A stretch of 64,000 nucleotides of DNA, taken from contig PKCN01000360.1 in assembly GCA_002862205.1 (NCBI GenBank), forward strand, positions 1 to 64,000, given 5' to 3'. The notes beneath the pieces were generated by a model that saw nothing but the letters and a program-made list of their open reading frames with translations, was not told where the DNA came from and searched no databases. The position numbers were made by a program, and so were the translations under genes. Below are positions 303 to 2,997 of the stretch, piece by piece. This stretch comes from Planctomycetaceae bacterium. Its GTDB lineage: Bacteria > Planctomycetota > Planctomycetia > Pirellulales > Pirellulaceae. Each line of letters opens with the position of its first letter. The stretch's first letter is position 1.

Positions 303-1856
303 TCAGTTGGACAGTTGTATCAACACCGTATCAAGAATACGGTCAATGGTTGCATAGTCTGTCATGCGTTCTGCTGCGTCGGCGTGCATCATGCTGACGA
401 CTAAATCCTGCAACGGCTTGGGCGTGCCTCGCCAATCTGATTCCTTAGGTTCAAAACGCTGCATGGAACTGATAATCGCCTTTGTACTTTCACTCTCGAA
501 TGCACGCCTGCCGCTAAAAATTTCGTAGGCCACACATCCAAGGCTGAAGAAATCACTCCTGTAGTCAGCTGGGTATCCACGCAATCGTTCCGGTGCAATG
601 AAGCCCGGCGTACCGCTCAGATGCTTACTGACATCCCGTTTGACACACAACTCATCAGCCAAACCAAAATCAAGAAGATGACATTTCCTTGAATCAAGGC
701 TCAACATGATGTTGTCCGGCTTGATATCCCGATGCACGAGTCCAATCTTGTGAACAGCCTGAACACCCTGCAAGATTTTCTTGAATAGCTCCGTTCCCAA
801 CTGCAGTGAAACCTGGCCCTGTCGAATACGCTTTGAAAGCGACTGTCCGGTCAGATATTCCATGACAAAGAATGGGCGTTCATCAATTTCACCAACATCG
901 TAAACACGTACAACATTCTCGTGGGACAACCGCGCCATCGCTCGTGCTTCTTCGATAAACGGGTCCGCTAATTCTCGACCAACTTTGACCGACTTGAGCG
1001 TTTTGATCGCGACTACCCGGTTGAGAATGTCGTCCGTCCCACGATAGACAACACCCATTCCCCCCACACCGATGATCTCGTTAATCGCATACCGGCCGAG
1101 GCGTTTAGGAAATGGGATCACATTCTTCTGGGAATCCTGCATTCCCGAACCCGCCCGACTGCCACTGTTGGAGGGAAACCAGTCGAAACTTGCCGCATCT
1201 GATGCCGCCTGCGAATCACCTACACTTTCAGAAGCAACGAACGTTTCCTCAAAACTCTCAGCTGTAGCAGTCGATTCCATGCTGACAATCTTGACTTCAG
1301 ACACATCATTTTCAGCGACAACTCGTTTCGCCTCAAATGTGCAAAAGGGGTGTCCCTGCTTTGAACATGTGACTTCTCTAATGCTGATATCCTCCTGATA
1401 AAAATCAGCGATGCCCTCAATGATCCCGTGAGCGAGAGTACAAAGCCCACGCCGCGATGAGTAGACGACTTGAGCCTCATCTTCACTCAGGCGAAAGGCC
1501 TGGATATTGGCTGGTTGTGCAGTCGGATTCTGCATTCGAATGGTGCGGTGAATCAATGACTCGACGTTCGCAAGTAACTCAAACGTTTTCCACTCCGGGT
1601 GCAACATGTTGCTCGCAAAACCAATCAACTCTGGTCCGGCAAAACGTCCCAAAACCCGCAGCAAGTCATCCAATTCCACCTTCAACAACTCACAGCCAGC
1701 CCCCAAAAGAGCAAACACCGCCTCGTCGGGATAGGTACCGATCGGGGAAAGCACCAAGCCCTCGTAACCCGCCTGTTTCAAAATAGCATCCCATGCTTCA
1801 GGCCCGTGATTCGTGTCTACGAATTTCTTGACAATACAACAGATGGATCCGTGCAT
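303..1856 (-). CDS. H-NOX (haem NO-binding) domain fused to Ser/Thr protein kinase
   Basis: A predicted haem-dependent gas sensor joined to a eukaryote-like protein kinase (517 aa). Residues 1-178 match the H-NOX/HNOB fold: the opening MHGSICCIVKKF, a candidate proximal haem-ligand His103, Pro115, and the diagnostic YxSxR haem-propionate motif as Tyr132-Ser134-Arg136. A linker of about 75 residues rich in Ser, Glu and Ala follows. The kinase (about 254-510) is complete: glycine loop GVGGMGVV at 263-270, Lys285, HRDIKPDN at 375-382, DFG at 397-399, and APE at 421-423. There is no transmembrane segment, so it should be cytoplasmic. H-NOX proteins usually partner histidine kinases or cyclases as separate chains, or fuse to MCPs or guanylate cyclases. 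The direct kinase fusion is the odd feature. That NO binding controls kinase activity is inference. Confidence 0.9.
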   Translation of the reverse strand: MHGSICCIVKKFVDTNHGPEAWDAILKQAGYEGLVLSPIGTYPDEAVFALLGAGCELLKVELDDLLRVLGRFAGPELIGFASNMLHPEWKTFELLANVESLIHRTIRMQNPTAQPANIQAFRLSEDEAQVVYSSRRGLCTLAHGIIEGIADFYQEDISIREVTCSKQGHPFCTFEAKRVVAENDVSEVKIVSMESTATAESFEETFVASESVGDSQAASDAASFDWFPSNSGSRAGSGMQDSQKNVIPFPKRLGRYAINEIIGVGGMGVVYRGTDDILNRVVAIKTLKSVKVGRELADPFIEEARAMARLSHENVVRVYDVGEIDERPFFVMEYLTGQSLSKRIRQGQVSLQLGTELFKKILQGVQAVHKIGLVHRDIKPDNIMLSLDSRKCHLLDFGLADELCVKRDVSKHLSGTPGFIAPERLRGYPADYRSDFFSLGCVAYEIFSGRRAFESESTKAIISSMQRFEPKESDWRGTPKPLQDLVVSMMHADAAERMTDYATIDRILDTVLIQLSN

Positions 1857-2198: not shown

Positions 2199-2864
2199 TT
2201 ATGCATCGGGCCAATCGGGATCAGCAATTTGGCGGGCCATGTTTGCAAGTTTGGACTGGGTATCCAACATTCGCTGCCAAGACGCCATTTTCAACACCAC
2301 TTCCTGACTATTTTCATCTGTTCTCGCTGCTTCAATTAAACGCTTCAGTCGAGACTGCAAATAGTCAAGGATTTCACAAAGCTGCGCCTTCTGCCCAGGT
2401 GATAAGTCCGCAGGAATATCTGGCACTTCCTGAACCTGAATGATTTCCGCAGGATGCGGCGACTTGGGCTCAGCACCGAGATTCAGTGCAATCGAACCTT
2501 CACTGTTTTGTTCATCTCGACTGACCGTTGGATTCTCATTTCCCATCGCAGCAAGACGAGCCGCGATTTGAGTCTCCGACCCAACCAGCATCAAACTGCG
2601 TCCAACAGAAATAAGATCCCCGTGACGCAAAATTTTGAGTTGGCACTCAACGCCATTGACCTTGGTTCCATTGGTACTGTCGAGATCAGTCAAAACAAGC
2701 CTGTCATTATCACGCTGCACTTTGAAATGACAACGGCTCACTCGCTCATCGTTCAGCTGAATCTCATTCCCTTCCTCGCGACCTATCGTCAGAGGCGGAG
2801 CAAGATCTTCGTAGATCTTGCCGCGGTCGGCTCCATGAAGGATTTTGAGCGTTACGCCCGGCAT
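2199..2864 (-). CDS. FHA domain protein
   Basis: A predicted phosphothreonine-binding adaptor of 221 aa. The forkhead-associated domain fills about residues 5-100 and shows the signature positions: the GR pair (TIGREEGNE), SRCH, and the DSTNGTKVNG loop. The C-terminal 110 residues are polar and then helical, probably coiled coil (about 150-215), with no membrane segment. I chose the ATG at 2864 because GGAG (2871-2874) lies six bases upstream and the protein then opens MPGVTLKILHG, typical of stand-alone FHA proteins. A TTG at 2897 would add 11 residues. It is the gene immediately upstream, on the same strand, of the H-NOX kinase. A kinase-FHA functional pair is plausible but inferred from position. 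Confidence 0.85.
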   Translation of the reverse strand: MPGVTLKILHGADRGKIYEDLAPPLTIGREEGNEIQLNDERVSRCHFKVQRDNDRLVLTDLDSTNGTKVNGVECQLKILRHGDLISVGRSLMLVGSETQIAARLAAMGNENPTVSRDEQNSEGSIALNLGAEPKSPHPAEIIQVQEVPDIPADLSPGQKAQLCEILDYLQSRLKRLIEAARTDENSQEVVLKMASWQRMLDTQSKLANMARQIADPDWPDA

Positions 2865-2870
2865 AGGGCA

Positions 2871-2874
2871 CTCC
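2871..2874 (-). promoter_or_regulatory. Ribosome binding site deciding the FHA gene start
   Basis: GGAG on the minus strand, six bases before the ATG at 2864. The longer frame would begin at a TTG at 2897 without such a site. Confidence 0.55.
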
Positions 2875-2997
2875 ACAGTTGGGAAAGTCTTCGACAAGGC
2901 TTGAAAAGAATCCGATCCATTATAATCACGATTAATACTCTAGTCATTCGTGTACTTATGAATCCTATCTACATTATACCCCCGAAAAATGACTCGA

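Follow-up and report, generated by a model that had tools for sequence, protein, structure and literature searches.

H-NOX proteins are described, in the sections of two accounts that treat their partners, as acting with histidine kinases, with diguanylate cyclases or phosphodiesterases, and with chemotaxis domains to which they are fused (PMC8738867, PMC8846402); the initial annotation of the DNA studied here names histidine kinases, cyclases and MCPs. In passages of PMC7108781, the zinc ligands of S. oneidensis H-NOX are given as Cys139, Cys164, Cys172 and His161, and the fourth ligand in V. cholerae H-NOX as a Gln. The same source reports that the cysteines of the V. cholerae protein form disulfides when oxidised, that the oxidised protein inhibits HnoK and that the haem-free protein still responds to oxidation in vitro; it also describes H-NOX signalling as a movement about glycine hinges (Gly81 and Gly154 in V. 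cholerae numbering). The H-NOX protein of Caulobacter is reported to have no activity on HnoK in its Fe(II)-NO form and to be activated by cysteine oxidation (PMC12329717, in the portion on this protein). A distal Tyr is named as a feature of O2-binding H-NOX domains in the relevant section of PMC8738867.

No description of an H-NOX/HNOB-Ser/Thr kinase protein was present among the matches listed in our search of the open-licence literature. A 2009 kinase survey mentions, in the passage concerned, HNOBA, a different domain, together with kinase-like non-kinases (PMC2754085), and an extract of PMC4053784 describes Acanthamoeba H-NOX proteins that are not joined to cyclases. The words 'heme', 'HNOB' and 'sensor' are absent from the main text of a paper on the accessory domains of planctomycete kinases (PMC11032199); the layout may be listed in its supplements or in domain-architecture databases. 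The sensor and the kinase are each known, and it is their combination, together with a double invariant ligand set, that was not found described in the literature searched.

The window that we analysed, a stretch of 64,000 nucleotides, is the start of a contig (C11) in a 7.8-Mb planctomycete assembly with a completeness of 98.7%. An open reading frame at 303..1856 on the minus strand, with an ATG start, encodes a protein of 517 aa. Residues 3-160 match the Pfam family HNOB (PF07700; E 6.2e-29, 101.4 bits against a cut-off of 25.5), and residues 256-499 match Pkinase (PF00069; E 8.3e-52, 176.6 bits against a cut-off of 31.7). These two matches within a single open frame bear out the initial annotation, which had proposed one 517-residue chain with an H-NOX domain followed by a Ser/Thr kinase. 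A match to V4R at residues 133-177 (33.0 bits, cut-off 31) overlaps the end of the H-NOX domain. From the Pfam matches, the profile alignment, the predicted model and its superposition, we place the H-NOX domain at residues 1-185 (1302..1856, minus strand), with a V4R-like C-terminal end at 133-177.

A profile of 16 H-NOX domains (that of the window and 15 named relatives) had S. oneidensis H-NOX as the best match among solved structures (4u9b, E 2.7e-23), with residues 1-177 aligned without a gap. His103 (codon 1548..1550, minus strand), the predicted proximal haem ligand, aligns to the haem-binding His103 of that protein. His103, Pro115 and the haem propionate motif Tyr132-x-Ser134-x-Arg136 (1449..1463, minus strand; assigned from sequence and conservation) were found exactly where they had been placed previously. 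Structure prediction, which had been suggested as a check, yielded an H-NOX fold: the domain model (pLDDT 87.8, pTM 0.84) superimposes on 4u99_B with a Z of 21.4, the highest against crystal structures (rmsd 2.8, 183 aligned; VIA-align), and on guanylate cyclase 8hbh_B with a Z of 18.5 (rmsd 3.2, 179 aligned). H-NOX structures head the Foldseek list, and TRAPP Bet3 and the MopR/DmpR sensor domains reach Z values of <10. The alignment and the fold match together suggest that His103 faces a haem pocket. At position 141, which we take to be the place of the distal Tyr in O2-binding H-NOX, the window protein has Leu, as do 70 of the 73 fusion proteins described below (Met, Gly or Val in the others). 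Having no distal-pocket Tyr, it lies outside the O2-binding, MCP-type H-NOX group, and NO rather than O2 is therefore the expected gas.

The most telling feature of the protein was unmentioned in the initial annotation. Three cysteines, Cys139 (codon 1440..1442), Cys164 (1365..1367) and Cys172 (1341..1343; all minus strand), are numbered identically to the cysteines that bind zinc in S. oneidensis H-NOX, and the ungapped profile match superimposes the two sets. This triad is present in 73 of 73 fusions versus 3 of the 58 kinase-less H-NOX ORFs examined (L042, L089 and L102, of which L089 and L102 lack Arg136). His103 is present in all 58 of these ORFs and the YxSxR motif in 55. His2 also marks the fusions, being present in 70 of 73 versus 0 of 58. 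The kinase-less set comprises the HNOB ORFs at the retrieved loci, 65 minus seven pieces of fusion genes (L018, L121, L159, two at L015 and two at L128), so that some further HNOB matches in the samples lie outside the cysteine count. One of its members, L042:1426-2274 (genome G105), has the full triad together with Gln161 and scores highest of the non-fused ORFs against the fusion profile (114 bits); the genes beside it resemble response regulators by eye.

At position 161, where the zinc-type H-NOX proteins have His or Gln as the fourth ligand, the window protein has Glu. Among the 73 fusions, Glu occurs at this position in 61, Gln in seven, Lys in four and His in one; Lys is a poor zinc ligand. 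Because of this Glu, we do not file the window protein under the zinc-type H-NOX group, with which it shares the three cysteines, though it may work alike. The initial annotation had proposed a layout leading from NO to Ser/Thr phosphorylation. The layout itself is confirmed, it recurs, and the data agree with its having arisen once; the restriction of its input to NO is too narrow, considering the three invariant cysteines that match a zinc/thiol switch and the precedent of the Caulobacter protein.

The kinase domain (residues 256-499; 360..1091, minus strand), defined by Pfam, motif alignment and fold match, is of the Hanks type and has an HRD motif (RD type); RD kinases are usually controlled via the activation loop. 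The earlier description of this kinase as complete is confirmed by the Pfam match and by the catalytic residues, all of which are in place: K285, E303, H375-R376-D377, K379, N382, D396-F397-G398, T416 and E423. The Lys, Glu, HRD, Asn, DFG and APE elements characteristic of Hanks-type PF00069 kinases are thus all represented. Among 75 aligned kinase domains, no row lacks the catalytic Lys or Glu, one has Asp in place of the first P-loop Gly, and the HRD and DFG residues are in place wherever a row extends to them, apart from L101, which has Asn for the Lys after HRD and a DLG sequence, and L110, which has one undetermined base. The closest kinase folds are those of S. aureus PknB/Stk1 and M. 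tuberculosis PknA/PknB. The protein nevertheless scores only 216 bits against the PASTA/PknB family NF033483, for which the cut-off is 450, and the hydropathy window revealed no membrane segment of the PASTA/PknB kind.

Residues of about 186-249 (1110..1301, minus strand) form a low-confidence and probably flexible linker, with pLDDT values of <50 at 181-249. The linker has a median length of 51 aa in the family, and the tail after the kinase has 10-29 aa in the 68 fusions that reach the kinase end. No 19-residue window with a hydropathy of >1.6 is present in the linker or tail of any of the 73 fusions, the window protein included; by this simple test, the fusion protein appears to be soluble, unlike PASTA kinases. 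Since NO and many oxidants reach the cytosol, a soluble sensor would be sensible. The full-length model is weak (pLDDT 66.1, pTM 0.52), and a contact or interface between the H-NOX and kinase domains is therefore not predicted.

The initial annotation had recommended a search for the HNOB plus Pkinase architecture. Two samples of planctomycete genomes, a phylum sample (392 genomes) and an order sample (396 genomes), were searched for HNOB; the order-sample loci with long frames were retrieved, and the ORFs at all retrieved loci were screened with a pair of profiles derived from the 13 fusions found earliest. Seventy-five ORFs had both profile matches. His103, Pro115, Tyr132, Ser134, Arg136, Cys139, Cys164 and Cys172 are all present in 73 of these and all absent from the other two (L101 and L161), which were excluded. 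The 73 fusion ORFs with the haem set and the triad, including that of the window, derive from 70 genomes. Two genes joined by a sequencing error, a possibility raised earlier, or another assembly artefact is ruled out by this recurrence in the assemblies of 70 genomes, and chance resemblance is ruled out by the profile scores and the fold match.

In the order sample, HNOB was found in 92 of the 396 genomes and the fusion gene in 63, 45 of which belong to another family of the order (f8). The gene is cut in seven of the 63, by contig ends (G667, G664, G659 and G683), a gap (G675) or a frame change (G648 and G538). HNOB was found in 42 of the 392 genomes of the phylum sample, where, besides the window's own genome, one genome outside the class (G103) has three fusions and another (G166) has one degenerate fusion; other frames of >400 aa are limited to G208 and G135, and both lack a kinase. 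Among 14 control genomes, one (Caulobacter) had an HNOB match. Sixty-eight of the 73 fusions reach the kinase end in one frame, and the kinase is cut in the remaining five by contig ends (L116, L125 and L137), an assembly gap (L145) or a frame change (L136). At L009, the first 49 residues are out of frame. Two further copies, cut before the kinase by a contig end (L121) and a frame change (L159), are included in the 63-genome count and not among the 73 ORFs. A contig scan with two narrow patterns returned 18 loci, all planctomycete, and missed most of the family found by profile, so that carriers in other phyla are possible.

Among the window's own genome and its relatives, 16 of 60 genomes contain the fusion, whole or as an identifiable piece (the split at L018 is an assembly gap, a run of N). 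Thirteen of the 22 genomes of the genus hold the gene. It is uninterrupted in ten of these; in the others, the first 49 residues are out of frame (G007), an assembly gap intervenes (G004) or six stops are present (G005). In the other nine, only kinase matches are listed, with no fusion. The presence of broken copies in two genomes and the lack of a listed fusion in nine of 22 suggest that the gene is dispensable in some strains. The closest named relatives, with 85-89% identity in the H-NOX domain, are from MAGs labelled Rhodopirellula, Rubripirellula (a genus in Pirellulaceae, order Pirellulales) and Planctomycetota. The named carriers comprise Rhodopirellula/Rubripirellula MAGs, a Fuerstiella MAG and uncultured Pirellula MAGs, and the chromosome of strain SV_7m_r contains a broken copy.

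Sequence conservation in the H-NOX domain of the fusions is concentrated in a small number of residues. Pairwise identity over the 73 fusions has a median of 39% and a minimum of 25%, and only 14 positions are invariant when gaps are ignored: G70, L77, W89, E99, H103, P115, Y132, S134, R136, C139, G144, G148, C164 and C172. Both the haem set and the cysteine triad are among them. In a tree of 76 fusion and 58 other rows (omitting L101, L161, two rows of L015 and two of L128), one branch, with an SH-aLRT of 100, separates the H-NOX domains of the fusions from all the others. The same split was obtained, with an SH-aLRT of 98, after removal of C139 and of residues 160 onward (75 versus 54 rows; five long or outlying rows, L102, L092, L044, L100 and L049, were additionally omitted). 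Both trees are of a quick type and carry long-branch warnings. These results are consistent with a single origin of the fusion family. Given this common grouping of the fusion domains, we favour a view of the triad as a single ancestral trait kept by selection over one of 73 independent events.

Several other arrangements were encountered. The 12.3-Mb genome outside the class encodes its three H-NOX-kinase paralogues at L103:1304-3925, L099:975-2480 and L100:1756-3474, one of which has a 284-residue linker. At L101:496-2499 (G166), an HNOB-like region (43.8 bits) lacking the haem His and the cysteines precedes a kinase and TPR repeats; this protein appears to be a haem-less relative of the H-NOX-kinase layout. 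At L161:1580-3277 (G535), HNOB is represented ahead of a kinase by its first half alone (profile 3-78). G535 also contains an intact stand-alone H-NOX (L075) and a broken copy of the main fusion (L128/L066), which is interrupted by frame changes and, in the H-NOX domain, by an in-frame stop. HNOB is C-terminal in L092:1444-3462 (G708), which has PAS and MCP signalling domains and is from a genome that also has a kinase fusion. It is likewise C-terminal in L104:199-2259 (G208), a protein of 687 aa whose first 500 residues have no Pfam match at E 0.001.

The gene upstream of the fusion (2199..2897, same strand) encodes an FHA domain according to Pfam, and the FHA domain is a natural reader of phospho-Thr. 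It adjoins the fusion only in the window and six close loci. Each of the nine genus genomes for which no fusion is listed has an orthologue with 79-83% identity, and the FHA gene and the fusion are on different contigs in G004, G006, G009, G015 and G019, although in G006 and G009 the fusion is near the end of a short contig and linkage there is possible. These findings weaken the case for a dedicated partnership, and the FHA gene is probably not a dedicated partner of the fusion. Other recurrent neighbours are clade-local or resemble spurious high-GC frames, and no operon partner or neighbour kept across the fusion family, or pointing to a substrate, was seen at the family loci.

The window's own genome also encodes a second, stand-alone H-NOX of 190 aa (L001:1429-2001 on contig C71; HNOB 115 bits). 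It lacks the triad and groups with the non-fused H-NOX proteins, and the cell may thus use separate H-NOX proteins for separate inputs.

We consider it fairly likely that the window protein is a soluble, cytosolic, one-component receptor kinase with a dual input, haem for NO and a thiolate/metal site for oxidants. The N-terminal H-NOX domain would hold haem on His103, with Tyr132, Ser134 and Arg136 gripping the propionates, and Cys139, Cys164 and Cys172 would hold a metal, probably zinc. The putative input would be binding of NO to the haem, thiolate oxidation or a combination of the two. The resulting change of state would move the H-NOX domain about a glycine hinge; G144 would be the counterpart of Gly154, given an offset of ten as for the cysteines, and G70 would be located at or next to the other hinge. 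This movement, transmitted through the flexible linker, could alter autophosphorylation of the Ser/Thr kinase in cis, in whichever direction, and the altered kinase could in turn change the phosphorylation of its presumed substrates. Several points weigh against the dual-input reading: the residue at the fourth ligand position is Glu, and even Lys in four of 73; no conserved neighbour names a substrate; a triad shared by descent represents one evolutionary event, however long it has been kept; and the weak full-length model, the dispensability of the gene in some strains and the long-branch warnings of the two quick trees count on the same side. Somewhat short of even weight is given to the broader proposal that the family is an ancient receptor-kinase family of single origin, in which an AND/OR gate for NO and oxidant within one domain leads to Ser/Thr phosphorylation.

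The simplest alternative is a pure NO sensor kinase, in which haem-bound NO gates the kinase and the triad holds only a structural zinc. This agrees with the presence of His103, Pro115 and YxSxR in 73 of 73 fusions and with the lack of a distal Tyr at 141, as in NO-type H-NOX. We nevertheless regard it as unlikely, because oxidation of the cysteines at the equivalent site is regulatory in the V. cholerae protein and replaces NO in that of Caulobacter, as far as the parts of the two sources cited above go. Moreover, NirK had no match in the 98.7%-complete genome, and cytochrome d1 had only a partial, sub-threshold one (22 bits against a cut-off of 25.5), so that denitrification within the organism offers no evident source of NO. 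NO may have to be supplied from outside, and a signal from oxidants is no less likely.

The opposite view, a thiol/zinc redox sensor kinase that lacks haem or uses it only to support the fold, draws on the three invariant cysteines, on the Caulobacter precedent (Fe(II)-NO inactive, oxidised form active) and on the response of haem-free V. cholerae H-NOX to oxidation in vitro, both as given in those same portions. The genome encodes one haem-copper oxidase subunit I (L165:1408-3783, contig C17), a 791-aa chain that also includes a cytochrome c part bearing the motif CSNCH; the oxidase, which from our reading of its sequence is presumably of the cbb3 type, fits an oxygen-using organism and thus this view. 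We judge it distinctly improbable, since the haem set is as invariant as the cysteines, which would be unexpected if haem were dispensable. It is also conceivable that the H-NOX domain is a docking or dimerisation module with the kinase controlled otherwise, or that the H-NOX domain is itself tuned through phosphorylation by the attached kinase. The degenerate proteins L101 and L161, in which H-NOX-like sequence persists beside a kinase although the haem His and the cysteines are missing, are in line with such a role, but the ligand residues are among the few invariant positions of the main group, and this explanation appears very improbable. Because an invariant haem set and an invariant cysteine set occur together in one family, the question of NO versus redox signalling by H-NOX is directly testable, and because a single protein holds input and output, it is assayable in one tube.

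The beta subunit of animal soluble guanylate cyclase, in which this kind of haem sensor detects nitric oxide, resembles the window protein in having sensor and catalytic output in one chain, but its output is a cyclase, and PAS and coiled-coil regions intervene. The kinase domain has the fold (TM 0.82 of the target) and motifs of PknB/Stk1 (4eqm, 9ymt), with 31% identity; kinases of this type are membrane kinases with extracellular PASTA domains, whereas no membrane segment was found in the window protein. HRI, the animal eIF2-alpha kinase, is a haem-sensing Ser/Thr kinase, but it is eukaryotic and its haem domain is unrelated to H-NOX. The closest counterpart of the sensor is that of the S. 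oneidensis H-NOX/HnoK system (4u99, 4u9b, 2kii), which has the same numbers for the haem His and the cysteines, aligns without gaps over residues 1-177 and superimposes with a Z of 21.4. That H-NOX has His at position 161 where the window protein has Glu, and it acts in trans, as an independent protein inhibiting a histidine kinase, according to the section of PMC8846402 on this pair, whereas the window protein has a Ser/Thr kinase in cis. The V. cholerae and Caulobacter proteins also have the haem His and three cysteines in corresponding places; as described in parts of PMC7108781 and PMC12329717, they are separate proteins acting on HnoK, with Gln or His as the fourth ligand, and have been shown to undergo the redox switching that we infer for the window protein. 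The H-NOX chemoreceptor resembles the window protein in having H-NOX in cis with its output, but it is a membrane, O2-binding protein with a distal Tyr, as characterised in a passage of PMC8738867, where the window protein has Leu141, a kinase output and no detected membrane segment. Direct coupling to Ser/Thr kinases in a large family would extend the range of H-NOX outputs by a new one, and, if the broader proposal above is true, the protein would be a one-protein counterpart of both H-NOX/HnoK and guanylate cyclase, with a different output.
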